Assembly: GCA_025354165.1 (NCBI GenBank)
Contig: JANXNI010000007.1
Span: 1 to 64,000, forward strand
Direction of reading: 5' to 3'
Length of the DNA: 64,000 nucleotides
Source: Burkholderiales bacterium
GTDB lineage: Bacteria > Pseudomonadota > Gammaproteobacteria > Burkholderiales > Casimicrobiaceae
Part shown: positions 52,271 to 64,000 of the stretch, in pieces
Layout of the letters: each line of letters starts with the position of its first letter
How positions within the stretch are numbered: position 1 is the first letter of the stretch
Notes under the pieces: generated by a model
The model's database searches: none
Told to the model about the DNA's origin: nothing
What the model saw: only the letters and a program-made list of their open reading frames with translations
Made by a program: the position numbers and the translations under genes

Positions 52271-52287
52271 ATCGATGTTTTATCGAT
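52271..52287. promoter_or_regulatory. Candidate HipB operator (paired ATCGAT)
   Basis: Two self-palindromic ATCGAT hexamers are spaced 11 bp apart (one helical turn), between a TATAAT-like -10 (52255-52260) and the AGGAGG ribosome binding site of the antitoxin gene. The surrounding 160 bp is strikingly AT-rich compared with the rest of the window. Confidence 0.5.
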
Positions 52288-52301
52288 TTAAGGAGGTAAT
52301 T

Positions 52302-52655
52302 ATGTCTACAGTGGTTATTGGATCAATTCAACCAGATAGCCATTCCACGACCGAATGGGAGCGCTATCTGGGCGAGCAATTCCGCGCCATGCGAATTCGT
52401 GCCGGGGTGGAGCAGGCAGTGCTCGCGGAGCGCGCCGACGTCAGCACGGGTGCCATCAAAAATCTGGAGTCTGGCAAGGGCTCCTCGCTCAAGACGATGA
52501 TCAAGATCGTGCGCTGTCTCGGGCGAACGGATTGGCTGGAATCACTGGCTCCGCAAGTCAGCGTGAGCCCGATGCAGATGCTCACCGCCGCACGTCGAAC
52601 CGCGCCGCGTCAGCGCGTTTCAAAGCCGCGCAACGTGTCCACGATTCACGCGTAA
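52302..52655 (+). CDS. hipB: HipB-like XRE antitoxin
   Basis: A 117-residue helix-turn-helix antitoxin. The ATG at 52302 follows a near-perfect Shine-Dalgarno (AAGGAGG), so the nine-codon upstream extension is rejected. The XRE domain covers about residues 22-80: YLGEQFRAMRIRAGVEQAVL, AERADVSTGAIKNLESGKGS and TMIKIVRCLGRTDWLESL. The C-terminal tail is basic and Pro-rich, longer than in E. coli HipB. It should bind and silence the HipA kinase encoded 6 bp downstream and repress its own promoter, where paired ATCGAT sites are seen. Confidence 0.88.
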   Translation: MSTVVIGSIQPDSHSTTEWERYLGEQFRAMRIRAGVEQAVLAERADVSTGAIKNLESGKGSSLKTMIKIVRCLGRTDWLESLAPQVSVSPMQMLTAARRTAPRQRVSKPRNVSTIHA

Positions 52656-52661
52656 ATCGGC

Positions 52662-53939
52662 GTGTACAACGCGGTTGACTTGATCGAAGTTCGTGCGTGG
52701 GGCGCGACTGTCGGCGCGGTGACGCTGGAGCCCCGTCTTGGGTATTACGCGTTTGAATATGCATCGGCATGGCAAGCGCGCGGCATTGAACTCGCGCCGT
52801 TGACGATGCCGCTTTCACAATCGACGTACATATTTCCATCGCTTCCGGAAGCAACCTTTCAACGTTTACCGGCGTTGCTTGCGGATGCCTTGCCGGACGA
52901 TTTTGGTAACGCACTGATTGACGCCTACCTCGCTCGTGCTGGCGTCGAGCGCAACGCCATCATGCCGCTGGATCGGCTCGCCTACATGGCTGCGCGCGGT
53001 ATGGGCACGCTGGAGTTTCGCCCCGCGCGTGGCCCACGACACACGAAGCCCACGGCCATCGAACTCTCGGAGTTGGTCACCAGCTCGCGGCGGGCGCTCG
53101 CCGGAAAATTTGAGGGTGATCGCGCGACCGAAGCCGCGATTTTGAATCTGATTCAGGTCGGCACGTCCGCAGGCGGCGCGCGTGCGAAAGCCGTGATCGC
53201 ATGGAACCCATCGACAAACGAAATTCGCTCAGGCCAACTGCCCGCCGCGCCGGGGTTCGACTACTGGTTGGTCAAGCTCGACGGCGTTGGCCGCGATAGT
53301 GAACTCGGCACCGGCGGCGCCTATGGCCGCATCGAATTCGCGTACTCGCTGATGGCGAAAGCGGCTGGCATCGACATGGCCGAATGTCGCCTGCTCGAAG
53401 AAAACGGCCGCGCCCACTTCATGACGCGTCGCTTTGATCGGCAGGACGGCGAAAAAGTCCACATGCAAACGCTCTGCGCTATGCAGCAGCTCGATTACAA
53501 GCAGCGCGGCACGCACGACTACAACCAGTATTTCCAGACCATTGCCGCGCTCGGTCTGGGCGCGGACGCGCTGGAGCAGGGCTTTCGGCGCATGGTGTTT
53601 AACGTGCTCGCCGCGAACTGCGACGATCACACCAAGAATCTGTCTTTCCTGCTGCCGAAGAATGGCAAATGGAAGCTGTCACCGGCCTACGATGTGACGC
53701 ACGCGTTCAACCCCAAAGGCGAGTGGACGTATCAGCATCTGATGTCAGTGAATGGGCGCTTCAGCGGCATTACGCGAGACGATCTGTTTGCCGTCGGGGA
53801 TCGCTTCTTAGTACCGCGATTTCGCGAGGTGATTCGCGAGGTTTCTGCGGCGGTCGCGCAGTGGGGGGATTTTGCGAAAACGGCGGGTGTACCTCAGCGA
53901 GAGGTCGCAGCGATTACGGCCGATTTTCCGAAAATCTAA
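52662..53939 (+). CDS. hipA: HipA-family serine/threonine kinase toxin
   Basis: A type II toxin kinase of 425 residues that starts at GTG six bases after hipB. E. coli HipA phosphorylates glutamyl-tRNA synthetase and induces persistence; targets of other members vary. The N-terminal HipA_N domain has LPDDFGNALIDAYL; the P-loop-like segment is GTSAGGARAK (167-176); the catalytic segment is NCDDHTKN (319-326), with the metal-binding Asp344 in SPAYDV. All catalytic elements are intact, so the toxin should be active. REP-like repeats follow it, and the AT-rich upstream region suggests the module was acquired by transfer. Confidence 0.93.
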   Translation: MYNAVDLIEVRAWGATVGAVTLEPRLGYYAFEYASAWQARGIELAPLTMPLSQSTYIFPSLPEATFQRLPALLADALPDDFGNALIDAYLARAGVERNAIMPLDRLAYMAARGMGTLEFRPARGPRHTKPTAIELSELVTSSRRALAGKFEGDRATEAAILNLIQVGTSAGGARAKAVIAWNPSTNEIRSGQLPAAPGFDYWLVKLDGVGRDSELGTGGAYGRIEFAYSLMAKAAGIDMAECRLLEENGRAHFMTRRFDRQDGEKVHMQTLCAMQQLDYKQRGTHDYNQYFQTIAALGLGADALEQGFRRMVFNVLAANCDDHTKNLSFLLPKNGKWKLSPAYDVTHAFNPKGEWTYQHLMSVNGRFSGITRDDLFAVGDRFLVPRFREVIREVSAAVAQWGDFAKTAGVPQREVAAITADFPKI

Positions 53940-58630: not shown

Positions 58631-60046
58631 CTATGGGTCATGGTGCGTAATCTGCGTCGGTACTGCCCTTTTTCTGCCTACGTCAACTAGCGCGAGATTC
58701 ATCGACGCCGCAAAAAATAACGTAGCCAGTGTCGCGATAGCAGGGATATGCGACGGAAAGTCGAACCAGGCATGAATTGCAAAGGCGAAGGCCCCGAGAT
58801 AGCAAGCTAATGCAGGCGAAAGACGATCACCCCTGATGCGGGACCGCCAAAGGGTGCGTCCCGAAAGCACTGCGGCGAGAAGCAGCAGCACAAGTACAAC
58901 CACACCCAACGCCCCTAACTCAAACAGCAACTGCATGTAGTCATTGTGAGCATATTCCACAAAACCCAACAGGTTCGGCGTCTGAAAACGCTGAAATGCA
59001 ATTGCGTAGCTTCCGAGACCAGCCCCTAATGGAAAGAACGCAACGATACCCGACCAAGTGTGCTGATTCATGACAGCGCGCCCAAATAGCCCCTCGCCGA
59101 CTCCGCCGCGTGTAGCCGATTTCGTTAGCTCCGCAAGACCGGTCATCGCAGCGAGACTGACCGCGAGCAGCAGAATCCCAGCGGCGGCAAGTAAGGCGCG
59201 TTTTGAGAATGTGCGGCGCTGGAATGCGCACAATCCTATTGCCGAGAGGCTGACAATACCCCCCGCTAACACGCCGGCGCGAGACAGGCTGGCGACAAGG
59301 GCTGCCGCAACGAATGCAGTCGCAGTTCCCCACCACATGTTTGAAAACGCAGTTGCGTCGTGTCGATGGGTAAAAAAGGAAAACTGGCCCGCCGCTCGAA
59401 AGATTAGGAGGGGCAGAGCCATCGCCAACAGTGTTGCGTAATGATTTTTGTTGACGAATGTGCCGGAAGCTCGACTGTGGCCCGCGTAATCGAAGACTAG
59501 CAATGATGCACCGCGGAAACCCAACTGAAACAGCCCAAGCAACGCCTCGAACACCGCAAACACAGCCACGGCACCCAACAGTTGCAGCAGCGCACGACGG
59601 GACAATTGGGGGATTGAAGCAGCAATTGCGAGGCACGGGGCTAAAGCAAGAAGCGAACGCTTGGTCGCGTACGGATCTGTCGACAAGGCCAGATATTGAA
59701 CCCCAAAATCCGGCAGCGCGAGCAACGAAACCACTGCGGAGTATGCATCTCGCCCTGGAAGAATTAACCACTGAGCAGCTGAAACCGTGAATAGCCCAAT
59801 TGCGCCGCCGACCATCAGAAGCATCAGCGCGGCATTAAAAATCGTCGCCGAGCTGCTCCACCGGGTTTCAACCGCGCGTGAGGCGTACATCAGGCATCCC
59901 GCTGCAACCGCTACGCAGACACTCAAACCCAGAGCCAACGACATTGCTAAAGCAGTGTTGCCGCCTCGAATGACGGCCAACAAAAGAAAAAGCCCCAGCA
60001 CGAAGGCTAGGGCTTTGTCGAGCGCGTTACGCGCGAAAGACTGCAT
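58631..60046 (-). CDS. O-antigen ligase / Wzy-type polysaccharide polymerase
   Basis: A polytopic inner-membrane protein of 471 residues with about a dozen hydrophobic segments. The Wzy_C (O-antigen ligase family) core is marked by SRASGTFVNKNHYATLLAMA and, after a large periplasmic loop, YAHNDYMQLLFELGALGVVV; the second carries the conserved His-Asn-Asp before the next helix. In an exopolysaccharide cluster the likely role is polymerisation of lipid-linked repeat units. Its ATG overlaps the stop of the small secreted-protein gene (TAATG), so the two are coupled. It is the last gene of the cluster on this side and is convergent with trmJ. Confidence 0.9.
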   Translation of the reverse strand: MQSFARNALDKALAFVLGLFLLLAVIRGGNTALAMSLALGLSVCVAVAAGCLMYASRAVETRWSSSATIFNAALMLLMVGGAIGLFTVSAAQWLILPGRDAYSAVVSLLALPDFGVQYLALSTDPYATKRSLLALAPCLAIAASIPQLSRRALLQLLGAVAVFAVFEALLGLFQLGFRGASLLVFDYAGHSRASGTFVNKNHYATLLAMALPLLIFRAAGQFSFFTHRHDATAFSNMWWGTATAFVAAALVASLSRAGVLAGGIVSLSAIGLCAFQRRTFSKRALLAAAGILLLAVSLAAMTGLAELTKSATRGGVGEGLFGRAVMNQHTWSGIVAFFPLGAGLGSYAIAFQRFQTPNLLGFVEYAHNDYMQLLFELGALGVVVLVLLLLAAVLSGRTLWRSRIRGDRLSPALACYLGAFAFAIHAWFDFPSHIPAIATLATLFFAASMNLALVDVGRKRAVPTQITHHDP

Positions 60047-60531
60047 TAGTTTGGACTAACGTTCCTGTTGTCGCGATACAACAAGTACACGCCGACACCT
60101 ACGGTAGCCCCGATTAACGCGTTTGTGCCCGTCAAGCCACCCACGGAAGGCACGGCCGCTGCACCAATCGCTACACCGATCGGTACAGGTTGAACCGCCG
60201 CCAAAAGGGCCGCGCACGAATTAGGGGCTGCGATGTCCACCCGCTCATTTTCCTTAAGCTCAATGTCGCAACCGCAAGGAAACACTACGGTAACGCTTGC
60301 CCGTGACGTCGTAGTGATACGCATCTTATTTTTAAGCGGTTGCTTTTCGACCCCGGAAGTCATGCCGGTAACGTCACTTACCAGCACATTGCCTACGACT
60401 TTTTGCAACTCAGCGACAAATTCAGTCGTCCCCCAAGCTGGGTCGTCGCAGCGTAAGTCATTTTTCTGTGCTGACACAACCGTCGTGGATAACGCGGCCA
60501 CGACGAAAAAAAGGCATTTCAAAATTTTCAC
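60046..60531 (-). CDS. Small secreted protein of the exopolysaccharide cluster
   Basis: A 161-residue protein. The start is a GTG at 60531 with a strong Shine-Dalgarno (AAGGAG, 7-nt spacing), which gives a clean signal peptide (LKCLFFVVAALSTTVVSAQ). The mature part has four Cys, a FecR/Cupin-like beta stretch (RASVTVVFPCGCDIELKENE) and a C-terminal Gly-rich hydrophobic segment (TGTNALIGATVGVGVYLLYR) ending in a short polar tail. I do not recognise the family. Translational coupling to the polymerase gene suggests a role in polymer assembly at the membrane, but that is inference. Confidence 0.75.
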   Translation of the reverse strand: MKILKCLFFVVAALSTTVVSAQKNDLRCDDPAWGTTEFVAELQKVVGNVLVSDVTGMTSGVEKQPLKNKMRITTTSRASVTVVFPCGCDIELKENERVDIAAPNSCAALLAAVQPVPIGVAIGAAAVPSVGGLTGTNALIGATVGVGVYLLYRDNRNVSPN

Positions 60532-60626
60532 TGTGCCGCTCCTTAAGTGCGGTTTTCTTACTTGACAGTTTACCGCTAGAACGGGCAGCAATCAACGAAA
60601 CAAGTGCGCTATTTCACGGTCGCAGA

Positions 60627-61835
60627 TTAGGACTTGCGTTTCATGCTGATGTCATCAAACAAAACGGTCCCACGGAAGCCCTGTAGTAGCTGAAGGCGAT
60701 CGCCGGCTTCGAGATCCAATAGTTGGCCCGTACACGCGTCCGGAACGGTGACCTCAACCACTCGCGACGTCCAACCATCTGGCAGCGCTTCGCTCTTGGC
60801 GGTGCCGATTGTGGGTCTTAAATTGGCCGGAACGCATCTGACTGTCCAGGTCACCGTGCCGGGCAAGCTGGCGCCGAGCTGGCGCGATCTATATGCGAGC
60901 ACGTAGCTGCCGGGCTGCAGTGCAAGATATTGCTGTGCAATAGGCAGTTTCAGTGCACGGCCATTAAAACGAATGGACAGCACGGTATTGTTGTTGCTGG
61001 CCGGCGTCGTTCCGCGTGTTCCCACCGAGCCTTCGCGAGTCAGGCCAACGGAAAATCCCTCCCGATACTCTCCGCCTGCCGCGAAACGCCAGTCAAACAA
61101 ACCACCCGTGACCGCGTGCTCGAAGTCGCCGTTGAACACGTTACCCAACGACTTTGGCGTCGTTCGCATCGCGTTGACCCACAGCCAATATGCAGCGGGC
61201 AGCTGGCCCTCGTTGATGGCTTGACTGCCGATGCAAGTGACAATCGCATCGTTTAGCGGTTGTATGCTGAGCGCTGGCTGTACCAGCGAAAACAGCGTCG
61301 AAAGCGACGCGCCTCTTTGACAGGCATACAGAAGAAAAGCGTCAACGGGAGGCCAGCCCGTTGCGAGTCGCGCGTTCCAGAACTTAGTCCATTCGGGATT
61401 CGCCGAGTGAGCGCGCAGCATCGCAAATGCATCGTTTCGCTCCGCCGGCAGCGTAACCGCCAGATCCGCGGCCTGATTCAATCCTGCATCGACGTTGCCT
61501 TGCTGAAAGGCGAGCAGAGTGCGTGCTTTTAGTACTTGCGGATCGGCTGGACCTAGTATCGTCGCGGCCTGAATGGCTTGCGCTGCAACTAATGGATCCT
61601 TAGTAAACAGTCTGGTAGCCCCTGCCCACGAGAGCCAACCGACGGGATCAAGAGGGCGACGAAGAATGTAGCTAATCGCACCCGTTGCCGGGTCTTTATC
61701 AACAAGGTTTGCGGGTGGAGATTGCAAAATGCCTGTCGTTAGCCCCCATGCCGCTGCTGTCGCGGCCACCACCAGCGCAGTGATCGACAGAGCCGCTGAC
61801 AGTCGAGGCGACGTCTGATCGGGGCGCTGACTCAT
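60627..61835 (-). CDS. TPR-like membrane-anchored protein of the exopolysaccharide cluster
   Basis: A 402-residue protein with one N-terminal membrane segment (LSITALVVAATAAAWGLTTG). Residues about 60-220 are helical and repeat-like (GWLSWAGATRLFTKDPLVAA; AIQAATILGPADPQVLKART; ALLAFQQGNVDAGLNQAADL), suggestive of degenerate TPRs. Residues 230-400 are beta-rich and look like a carbohydrate-binding jelly roll (NVFNGDFEHAVTGGLFDWRF; GFRGTVLFDDISMKRK). I cannot assign a named family. It starts 3 bp after the J-domain gene and is part of the same transcript. Confidence 0.75.
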   Translation of the reverse strand: MSQRPDQTSPRLSAALSITALVVAATAAAWGLTTGILQSPPANLVDKDPATGAISYILRRPLDPVGWLSWAGATRLFTKDPLVAAQAIQAATILGPADPQVLKARTLLAFQQGNVDAGLNQAADLAVTLPAERNDAFAMLRAHSANPEWTKFWNARLATGWPPVDAFLLYACQRGASLSTLFSLVQPALSIQPLNDAIVTCIGSQAINEGQLPAAYWLWVNAMRTTPKSLGNVFNGDFEHAVTGGLFDWRFAAGGEYREGFSVGLTREGSVGTRGTTPASNNNTVLSIRFNGRALKLPIAQQYLALQPGSYVLAYRSRQLGASLPGTVTWTVRCVPANLRPTIGTAKSEALPDGWTSRVVEVTVPDACTGQLLDLEAGDRLQLLQGFRGTVLFDDISMKRKS

Positions 61836-61838
61836 CCG

Positions 61839-63380
61839 TTAATTGATCACGTAGTTGGCAAGGCGTTCGATGCGCGATTCACCACGATCACGTCCGATAT
61901 CAAACTCGAGAAACACACGCTGAACCACCGTTCTGTTTTCCTGATCCACGGTCGTGACCGTGGCGTAGCCCGTCGTTGAAATTCGCTCACCGTTTGCCGC
62001 GTGCTTTAGTTGCTTGAACTTGATGCTGCGTTGCCGTGTAGCCTGAAAAACGCGTTCGTAATCGTTGAGCATCTGCCTCCTGCCGGACATCCCAGGTGCC
62101 AACAACTGGCTAAACGCGCTGATTGATCCCGCCTCATAAGCATTACTGAACCGCACCACGACTTCGTCGGCATCCGTGGATTTCACCTTTTGCGCGGACT
62201 CATTTCGGTCGGGCGCCGCCGCAATTCGTTGCGGGTTTGCGGGTGATGTCGTAACCACGGCCACAGTAGAAGGAGCCTGTAGGGCTGTAGCCTGCTGTGG
62301 TGACTGAAGGGGCGGCTGAGTGGGCAAATCCTGCGTGCGCGGCGGAGTAACTTTTTCCGGCGTTGCCGTTGCTCGCGGCTGCGATTCAACTGACGCCACA
62401 GATGCGCTGGGCGCAAGGCTTTCGGATTGATTCATCGATTGCTTTGATGAAATTTCTATGCTCCTGTCAGACAGCTGCGCTGTCATCGCAGGACGCGGTT
62501 GAATGGCTTCCGGGACGGTTTCGCGCTGGATAGTCCTTCTCTCAAGTGCGGACACTTTGTTTGGGACGCGACTCGTCGCCACAATTGCTGATTCGATCAC
62601 TACCGGCTGTTCCTGACCGACGGGAGATAGCGATGCGGAGTCACTCGCCGGCTTTGTTTCGCCGCGACTAGTATCAAGTTTCTGAATTGCAACTGACGGG
62701 GAGAGCCGAGGGCGGACCTCAACAAGGCGCTGCGGCTCATTGCTCGAAAACAAAGACATAACACCCATGCCCAGGGGAACGAGTAACAACCCAGCCAGCC
62801 AGAGCAGACTCTGGCGTGCGCGCAGCGAAGATGCCCAGCCCAGCACCCTGTTTCTCGTGGTTTTTTTTGCGCCTGTGCGCGTCCTCGCGTCGTTGCGTTG
62901 AGCCGTCGGGATCGGAGCCAACGCACCAACGGTAGCGCGACCTGTTTCCAGGGCGGTGTAGGTTTCGCGAGTGTTTGCGTCGGCTAAAACGGCATAGGCG
63001 CGGTTTACGCGACTTGCGGCGTCATCAGGAAATCCAACGGGCCTGGCGTCTGGGTGGACCAGTGCCATCAGCCGTCGAAAGTTGTCCCTAAGCGCGCTCG
63101 CTTCGAAGTCGGGCGCAACGCCCAGCGTGGTGAAGTGGTTACAGGCAGGAGACAACATGACGTCGGCAACGAATCGCGACGCTATGTTTTGCATATCGAG
63201 CCGCGCACTGCCGTCGCTCGCAGCAAGATGACGCAAAGACTCGGGAGTTTTGCCACCAGCGAGCTGAATGACAGCTTTTCCGACGTCGCTGCTGACCAGT
63301 CGAAATGGCAATGGCAACACAAAGCCACCATTAGCAAATCGGATCAGGTCATGTTCAAGCGTGTCGATAGTTTCGAACAT
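61839..63380 (-). CDS. J-domain membrane protein with C-terminal NTF2-like domain
   Basis: A 513-residue protein with an unusual domain order. After an unassigned N-terminal 80 residues comes a J-like domain (about 83-143: FTTLGVAPDFEASALRDNF, the HPD triplet at 109-111, and ASRVNRAYAVLADANTRETY). A basic linker leads to one membrane segment (SLLWLAGLLLVPLGMGVMSL, about 191-210), then about 180 disordered Pro/Ser/Gln-rich residues and a C-terminal NTF2/SnoaL-like domain (VVRFSNAYEAGSISAFSQLL; FLEFDIGRDRGESRIERL). The J-domain would face the cytosol, where it could recruit DnaK, and the NTF2-like domain the periplasm. It lies between the tyrosine kinase and TPR-like genes of the exopolysaccharide cluster. 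Function is unknown. Confidence 0.82.
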   Translation of the reverse strand: MFETIDTLEHDLIRFANGGFVLPLPFRLVSSDVGKAVIQLAGGKTPESLRHLAASDGSARLDMQNIASRFVADVMLSPACNHFTTLGVAPDFEASALRDNFRRLMALVHPDARPVGFPDDAASRVNRAYAVLADANTRETYTALETGRATVGALAPIPTAQRNDARTRTGAKKTTRNRVLGWASSLRARQSLLWLAGLLLVPLGMGVMSLFSSNEPQRLVEVRPRLSPSVAIQKLDTSRGETKPASDSASLSPVGQEQPVVIESAIVATSRVPNKVSALERRTIQRETVPEAIQPRPAMTAQLSDRSIEISSKQSMNQSESLAPSASVASVESQPRATATPEKVTPPRTQDLPTQPPLQSPQQATALQAPSTVAVVTTSPANPQRIAAAPDRNESAQKVKSTDADEVVVRFSNAYEAGSISAFSQLLAPGMSGRRQMLNDYERVFQATRQRSIKFKQLKHAANGERISTTGYATVTTVDQENRTVVQRVFLEFDIGRDRGESRIERLANYVIN

Positions 63381-63389
63381 GAATGACCT

Positions 63390-64000
63390 TTAGGCTCTCG
63401 CCGTCTTCGCGAGCTCTTCCTTATTCCCGTAATAGTAAAAGTCTGATTCATAACCGTACATCGTCATTTCACTACCCAGCTTGGTCAGGATGGCACCCAA
63501 CGGTGCTCGCCCCGCTTGCCGAAGACGCCGAATCGCATTGCGGATAGCGGCTTTTCGCGTCTTCGCACTTTCGATGACAAACAAACTTGCGTCAACGTGA
63601 TTACACAGAATAATGGAGTCTGCAATTCCCAGAATGGGTGGTGCATCGATCAAGATGTGATCAAAATTGGATGATCCTGGATCAAGCAGCCTTTGCATCG
63701 CGGGCCCGGACAGCAGTTCTGCCGGGTTAGGCGGCAATGGGCCGCCGGTGATGAGATACAGATTGGGGAAGTCGGTCTTACGTGTCACGGTGATGGGGTC
63801 AACATCGCTAGACAATATGTTGGACAGCCCAGTGGCGTGATCCGTATTGAACAGACGGTGAAGCGTTGGGTTGCGCATGTCACCGTCGACCAGCAAAACG
63901 CGCTTGCCCATTTGTGATAAGGCAACCGCCAAAGACATCGCGGTCGTTGTTTTCCCCTCATTTTTCGTGCAACTGGTAATCGCAATAGTGCGTGGTGCCC
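63390..64000 (-). CDS. Tyrosine autokinase (BY-kinase) of exopolysaccharide synthesis, 5'-partial
   Basis: The C-terminal 203 residues of a CpsD/EpsG/Wzc-type cytoplasmic tyrosine kinase that pairs with a chain-length regulator to control polysaccharide export. The frame runs open through the window edge at base 64000. Walker A (SCTKNEGKTTTAMSLA), Walker A' (VLLVDGDMRNPTLHRLF) and Walker B (FDHILIDAPPILG) are all visible. The C-terminal autophosphorylation cluster is short but present (MYGYESDFYYYGNK). It is the most upstream gene of the cluster in view and is followed by the J-domain gene after 9 bp. Confidence 0.93.
   Translation of the reverse strand, partial: APRTIAITSCTKNEGKTTTAMSLAVALSQMGKRVLLVDGDMRNPTLHRLFNTDHATGLSNILSSDVDPITVTRKTDFPNLYLITGGPLPPNPAELLSGPAMQRLLDPGSSNFDHILIDAPPILGIADSIILCNHVDASLFVIESAKTRKAAIRNAIRRLRQAGRAPLGAILTKLGSEMTMYGYESDFYYYGNKEELAKTARA

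Follow-up and report, generated by a model that had tools for sequence, protein, structure and literature searches.

A 513-residue protein that joins a J domain, one predicted membrane helix, a long disordered stretch and a C-terminal NTF2-like domain (J-TM-NTF2) is encoded inside a polysaccharide export operon of a Burkholderiales bacterium. At a probability of about 0.55, the protein is read here as a bitopic inner-membrane DnaK co-chaperone dedicated to the CpsB–Wza–BY-kinase–Wzy type of polymer export machine. The window, i.e., the whole stretch of DNA analyzed, is 64,000 nucleotides long, and the features discussed are listed in Table 1.

Table 1. Features of the J-TM-NTF2 gene and its neighbors, in window coordinates.
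Feature	Position	Strand	Basis
BY-kinase/Wzz-type polysaccharide co-polymerase, C-terminal part	63390..64000	(-)	TIGR01007 166.8 bits; Wzz, GNVR, AAA_31
J-TM-NTF2 protein, 513 aa	61839..63380	(-)	ORF, ATG start; domain matches and model
N-terminal helical segment, residues 1-75, weakly conserved	63156..63380	(-)	AlphaFold2 helices 8-16, 31-41, 47-53, 57-75; alignment
J domain, residues 81-141	62958..63140	(-)	PF00226 over cut-off; family profile vs PDB DnaJ
HPD motif, residues 109-111	63048..63056	(-)	Invariant across 13 aligned sequences
Predicted membrane helix, residues 192-210	62751..62807	(-)	Hydropathy 2.1; helix 191-211 in AlphaFold2 model
Disordered stretch, residues 212-395	62196..62747	(-)	pLDDT <50 nearly throughout
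NTF2-like domain, residues 396-513	61842..62195	(-)	AlphaFold2 model and structure matches
402-aa protein, weak TPR match, conserved C-terminal part, cluster partner	60627..61835	(-)	TPR_16 below cut-off
181-aa protein labelled 'FecR181', cluster partner	60046..60591	(-)	No family over cut-off
Wzy_C/O-antigen ligase-type polymerase	58631..60046	(-)	PF04932 46.2 bits

Domain architecture and membrane topology

In a Pfam scan of the protein, PF00226 (DnaJ) matches residues 81–141 with 34.9 bits (cut-off 27.8; E 1.7e-8); the same domain scores 38.4 bits in a whole-genome search, and a search of the PDB with the J-TM-NTF2 family profile retrieves DnaJ at E 6.6e-13. A chance match is ruled out by the score over the Pfam cut-off and by the profile match to PDB DnaJ. 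In the AlphaFold2 model, the HPD motif sits between predicted helices at residues 94–108 and 121–133. The fold-search matches listed for the full-length model are NTF2-like chains only, and the J fold rests on the sequence profile and the helix order. The earlier note on this DNA had proposed an HPD-containing J-like domain and had held that a predicted structure lacking the J fold would speak against it; the proposal was not refuted, the domain being present by profile and by the order of helices around the HPD.

The protein has a single hydrophobic helix, and the 25 residues before and after it contain seven and four lysines plus arginines, respectively; summed over the 29 HPD-type proteins (this one included), the counts are 158 and 71. 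By the positive-inside rule, this excess before the helix places the N-terminus inside, and the J domain would face the cytosol. The prediction agrees with the cytosolic J domain and periplasmic NTF2-like domain suggested earlier, as do the one helix (residues 192–210 by hydropathy) and the approximately 185 disordered residues that follow it, with pLDDT below 50 at residues 212–345 and 347–395 of the AlphaFold2 model.

The C-terminal domain, also part of the earlier description, was recovered in the predicted model. A C-terminal piece of 125 residues was modelled by AlphaFold2 at pLDDT 88.7; its best solved match is the NTF2-like 3soy (Z 16.0, rmsd 2.1 Å, 118 residues), and NTF2 from rat (1gy6) aligns over 109 residues with Z 15.1 and rmsd 1.9. 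The last 118 residues thus have the NTF2 fold in the predicted model. The call from sequence is weak (SnoaL_2, E 0.16, below cut-off), and sequence alone would hardly reveal the fold. At E up to 1, Pfam gives DnaJ and the sub-threshold SnoaL_2 only; Cds6_C (PF24125) is absent from the protein at that level, and one relative matches it with 16.8 bits against a cut-off of 27.

The export operon

The genes lie on one strand in the order CpsB, Wza, BY-kinase, J protein, TPR-like protein, 181-aa FecR-like protein and Wzy_C polymerase. CpsB_CapC, Poly_export/SLBB, Wzz with GNVR and AAA_31, and Wzy_C all score over their Pfam cut-offs. CpsB, Wza and most of the BY-kinase are past the window end on the same contig, the BY-kinase gene extending to contig position 65681; the part of this kinase inside the window carries a Tyr-rich tail. 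CpsB relatives are phosphatases of BY-kinases. The earlier placement of the gene in one operon with a tyrosine autokinase is borne out by the spacing, with the J gene starting 9 nt after the BY-kinase stop and the TPR-like gene 3 nt after the J stop. The genome has an HSP70 match of DnaK strength (850 bits) and a second HSP70 match adjoining a short J protein, both off this contig; the second pair would be HscA/HscB-like.

Two further observations concern the surroundings. Just beyond the window on the same contig (L037, 9786–19001), NTP_transf_5, an ABC transporter, Transglut_core3 and a glutamine amidotransferase (asparagine-synthase-like) lie beside the export operon, a set known from lasso-peptide loci, and matches to at least one of its members occur near the cluster in 11 of 12 relatives. 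Within the window, a helix-turn-helix gene followed by a HipA-like gene (52275–53939) looks by eye like a hipBA toxin–antitoxin pair.

Relatives and their distribution

Among 149 near genomes searched, 45 gave matches; leaving aside the window's own, the 12 strongest (E 4.8e-7 or lower) were taken as relatives, and the rest were read as ordinary J-domain matches. Wza and BY-kinase genes precede the J gene in all 12, so that the homologues are linked to polysaccharide genes, a link whose absence the earlier note had named as a refutation. The TPR-like, FecR-like and Wzy genes lie downstream of the J gene in 11 of 12, the contig ending in the other (L040). Seven have CpsB before Wza and four have it after Wzy; none is in view in L045, a 9-kb contig. 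The HPD is invariant in the 13 aligned sequences. In L039 and L144, the reading frame begins ahead of the likely start.

Two more members came from a profile search. One belongs to Ramlibacter sp. WS9, which has at least the first half of the cluster, and sits at a contig end; the other is from an uncultured Lamprocystis, whose gene order CpsB-Wza-BY-kinase-J-TPR-FecR-Wzy matches that of the operon described above. The search pattern behind both contained VHPD, so neither bears on HPD conservation. The Ramlibacter copy (L055) has HPD in its J domain and stands outside the counts given below, its contig ending before the NTF2 domain. The Wza-kinase-J arrangement occurs in other orders too, and relatives in scattered Burkholderiales and other Gammaproteobacteria also follow a BY-kinase. 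Plasmids gave no match, and a single-sequence scan of named genomes gave no relative.

Ordinary J proteins dominated a full-length profile search over the order, with matches in 393 of 399 genomes, and the query was therefore changed to the NTF2 domain, with profiles built from the same relatives. In the window's family, 14 of 64 genomes matched, namely the window's, those of the 12 relatives and G017. In a class sample, 27 of 369 genomes matched (profile A5), with 49 match rows and 28 neighborhoods read, so that each of the 26 genomes besides the window's is represented at least once; a further profile (A6) matched 11 of 40 genomes from the order to which G518 belongs and 11 of 117 from the family of G814. 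HPD-type copies are patchy: among the copies read, they occur in four of the 369 class-sample genomes, own included. A phylum-wide sample gave matches in three of 378 genomes, own included, one match being weak (2.9e-4).

The HPD motif and its gene context

The role of the HPD in J domains is established. Sixty-four NTF2-domain proteins (L153 and G1281 standing outside the classification) were sorted by J motif and by neighbors, the contexts being stretches of up to approximately 20 kb with matches to the window's own proteins, in which 'not in view' does not mean absent; contigs ending inside the cluster include L040, L045, L137, L193, L196 and L197. With BY-kinase and CpsB both in view, the HPD is present in 27 of 27. 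One of these, L203 (9256–10634), is counted via the upstream piece of a J gene split by a frameshift, real or from sequencing, that piece keeping the HPD; another, L057, was found by the VHPD-containing pattern and is not independent, the others having been found or re-found by the NTF2 domain. With a BY-kinase and no CpsB in view, the HPD is present in two (L045 and L193, contig ends), the J domain is degenerate in four and missing in two. The four degenerate motifs are YQE, YQD, WNE and HFH (L135, L139, L137 and L151, respectively), L137 being at a contig end. CpsB alone is in view for one protein, with a degenerate J domain, and other cluster genes alone for two at contig ends (L196 with HPD; L197 with no J domain in view). 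With no cluster genes in view, 12 proteins have a degenerate J domain (five are ATPase fusions) and 14 have none (six are fusions).

J-bearing proteins with a BY-kinase in view thus have the HPD in 29 of 33 cases (L203 included), the other four being degenerate, and those without one comprise one with HPD (L196, contig end) and 13 degenerate (Fisher p 2e-7, a value that ignores relatedness). On a tree of the NTF2 domain, which keeps 60 of the 64 rows and leaves out four short proteins without J, the HPD label needs four changes against a shuffled mean of 20.6. The number of independent contrasts is one on well-supported (starred) branches and three on all branches, or five if the trait is BY-kinase alone, whereas a sign test needs at least six. 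Both forms of this pair test exclude L196, and the first also excludes L045 and L193. The pattern rests on few independent lineages. The clearest contrast is found in family f230, where the four export-cluster copies have HPD (L144, L201, L202 and L203) and the motif is replaced by ATS or ART in four copies located elsewhere (L204, L205, L206 and L208); L207 and L209 show no J domain.

The J core is kept in the 18 degenerate rows (17 proteins, L151 counting twice): L86 in 18, G87 in 17, A128 in 18 and L132 in 16. In the same rows, H109 is kept in two, P110 in three, D111 in five, N126 in six and R102 in 10; QPD is seen in two of the degenerate copies (L145 and L150). Each of these positions is kept in 28 or 29 of the 29 HPD rows (L196 in, L203 out). 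Such a pattern would be expected if selection maintained contact with Hsp70 in one set and nothing beyond the fold in the other. Loss of the Tyr-rich kinase tail was rejected as the cause of the four degenerate J domains, whose kinases keep it; all 34 BY-kinase frames listed have at least four tyrosines in the last 32 residues.

Some degenerate copies have further peculiarities. In L135 (9770–10297) and L139 (9598–10128), a small exported-looking protein with a single NTF2-like domain lies between the TPR-like and FecR-like genes. L151 (9417–11966) has two tandem J-like domains, both without HPD.

Clusters without the gene

Full-length matches to the TPR-like partner (E <1e-40) were found in 17 of the 64 genomes of the family and in 10 of the 369 of the class sample, and a J or J-like NTF2 protein is also present in 14 of the 17 and eight of the 10. 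Five of the genomes with the partner remain. In three, the contigs (L260, L262 and L263) end at the TPR-like gene; in L264, the TPR-like gene directly follows the BY-kinase and the J gene is absent; in L261, the cluster shows no J gene and the contig ends just after the kinase. Neither of the last two genomes has an NTF2 match. One complete cluster (L264) therefore lacks the J gene, a second (L261) probably does, and the absence from L264 means that the gene is not essential to the cluster.

The wider NTF2 family

Ten relatives by NTF2 domain were scanned for their N-terminal parts. Eight start with an AAA domain matching TIGR03015 (XrtA/PEP-CTERM system-associated ATPase), five of them above its 324.5-bit cut-off and three below it; of the other two, one starts with a receiver-domain stretch and one is J-TM-NTF2 like the window's. 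The constant part is a membrane helix, a linker and the NTF2-like domain, and the cytosolic part is exchanged; a simple hydropathy rule gives no helix in two fusions (L140 and L148). These eight share with the window's protein the NTF2-like domain, with a J-like domain or none between and a TM helix in most; they differ in their own AAA domain, in a degenerate J domain or none, and in having no BY-kinase in the stretch read. The window's protein is not a TIGR03015 member, as it has no N-terminal AAA ATPase domain and no match to that model at E up to 1.

In L124 (7392–9518), a response-regulator receiver domain and a TM helix precede the same NTF2-like domain. The AAA-(TM)-NTF2 fusions of L126, L131, L138 and L148 adjoin, in all four, a protein of 200–236 aa and one of approximately 1,000 aa with a lipoprotein-like start. 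Apart from an ABC protein in L126, nothing in their neighborhoods matches the polysaccharide genes of the window, and these loci are perhaps another surface assembly system.

Proposed function and alternatives

As a co-chaperone for the assembly, cycling or disassembly of a Wza/BY-kinase export machine, the protein would stimulate the housekeeping DnaK with its cytosolic J domain, and its periplasmic NTF2-like domain, on the long flexible linker, would dock on Wza, the TPR-like protein or the polymer as its contact in the export apparatus. DnaK brought to the membrane in this way would remodel part of the machine; the client would most plausibly be the BY-kinase/co-polymerase oligomer, a guess from gene adjacency only. 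This reading draws on the HPD kept with BY-kinase and CpsB, the tight operon spacing, the recurrent Wza-kinase-J arrangement, the HSP70 of DnaK strength and the precedent of DjlA; the four BY-kinase clusters with a degenerate J domain, the cluster without the gene, the patchiness and the small number of independent lineages count against it.

DjlA of Escherichia coli is described as a J protein anchored in the membrane by one TM helix; when overproduced, it switches on the Rcs relay that regulates the capsule, an effect that needs DnaK and GrpE and in which H233Q is defective (PMC11709261). It is thus like the window's protein in its anchor and in a DnaK-dependent effect on a capsule pathway, and it differs in having the TM helix at the N-terminus, the J domain at the C-terminus and a TerB-like domain between, and in acting via Rcs (PMC11709261). 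The window's protein is not DjlA: the NCBIfam model PRK09430 gives 12 bits against a cut-off of 162, and Pfam gives no TerB match at E up to 1. In Nostoc, DnaK1 and DnaJ3 are reported as needed for the secreted hormogonium polysaccharide, again an Hsp70 system required for such a polymer (PMC9239167). There, DnaK1, DnaJ3 and GrpE act with type IV pilus motors, and no membrane anchor or NTF2-like domain is mentioned in the text available, where 'transmembrane' occurs 0 times (PMC9239167). Among the papers listed by a literature search with most subscription journals outside its scope, none describes a J-TM-NTF2 protein encoded inside an export operon. PMC3238334 was rejected as precedent, since its passages on a DnaJ-domain gene and an EPS cluster give distant locus numbers. 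The earlier statement that a DnaK-recruiting membrane protein in polymer export has no clear precedent thus holds for this architecture in such an operon and is otherwise too strong, because Hsp70 is tied to polysaccharide by DjlA and by the cyanobacterial DnaK1/DnaJ3, and ARC6/ZipN has an architecture resembling that of the protein.

That resemblance leads to a second explanation, which fits nearly as well and to which we lend tentative credence: a scaffold in which the J domain is a protein-contact adaptor and the protein tethers cytosolic and periplasmic export parts across the membrane with no Hsp70. As described in PMC3196505 and PMC6391411, ARC6 has a J-like domain and ZipN (Ftn2) a DnaJ-like N-terminus with one TM helix, and a folded far-side domain completes the likeness, which is an argument from likeness only. 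Both differ in being division proteins that bind FtsZ, and the J-like domain of ARC6, described there as Hsp70-independent, is followed by a long conserved region (PMC3196505; PMC6391411). Seventeen relatives, including four from BY-kinase clusters, retain a J-like domain that lacks the HPD, as a scaffold would allow; a pure scaffold, however, would not need the HPD found intact in every case with BY-kinase and CpsB. For the full model, Foldseek lists the intermembrane-space region of ARC6 (5had) at rank 49 (E 1.1e-4), but numerous other NTF2-like chains score equally well or higher, so it is not special. No ARC6 chain is among the 50 structure-comparison matches listed for the models, which is no evidence against the likeness. 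As a member of the ARC6-type family, the protein was rejected for want of any Pfam match to that family at E up to 1.

We consider it improbable that the protein is a general membrane quality-control co-chaperone of the DjlA type, in the operon by chance and serving other membrane clients too. DjlA is reported to boost the assembly and/or capacity of the AcrAB-NodT efflux pump in Caulobacter (PMC10754441), and the genome's other J proteins could share DnaK, but HPD-type copies have been seen only beside polysaccharide genes, and both the DjlA model score and the opposite position of the J domain in DjlA argue otherwise. Least probable is a stress-coupled switch in which free DnaK, or its occupancy by misfolded proteins, sets the BY-kinase/phosphatase cycle and polymer output tracks the chaperone state: the HPD goes with CpsB (27/27), four of the six J-bearing BY-kinase cases without CpsB in view are degenerate, and the Hsp70-like StkA is reported as a negative regulator of EPS in Myxococcus (PMC4319316), yet contig ends account for some of the cases with CpsB 'not in view' (L045, L193 and L137) and the lineages are few.

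Implications

The family is real and patchy across several lineages, and its function as a DnaK co-chaperone of polymer export is plausible; it would be a variant of the membrane co-chaperone, not a new category. The finding also shows how the XrtA-type ATPases examined are built in their C-terminal half. A broader picture, which we offer as a speculative one, is that of a periplasmic NTF2-like hub on a membrane stalk with exchangeable drivers, i.e., a J domain that hires DnaK in trans in BY-kinase/CpsB clusters, an AAA ATPase in cis in sister proteins whose J domain decays or disappears, and a receiver domain in one more. If true, Hsp70 would take an active part in the machinery of polysaccharide export and would not only regulate its genes. 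With an operon-encoded candidate co-chaperone whose HPD is kept in full clusters and lost in sisters elsewhere, a change of a single histidine makes a direct test, and the result would extend the work on membrane-targeted Hsp70 in bacteria beyond DjlA.
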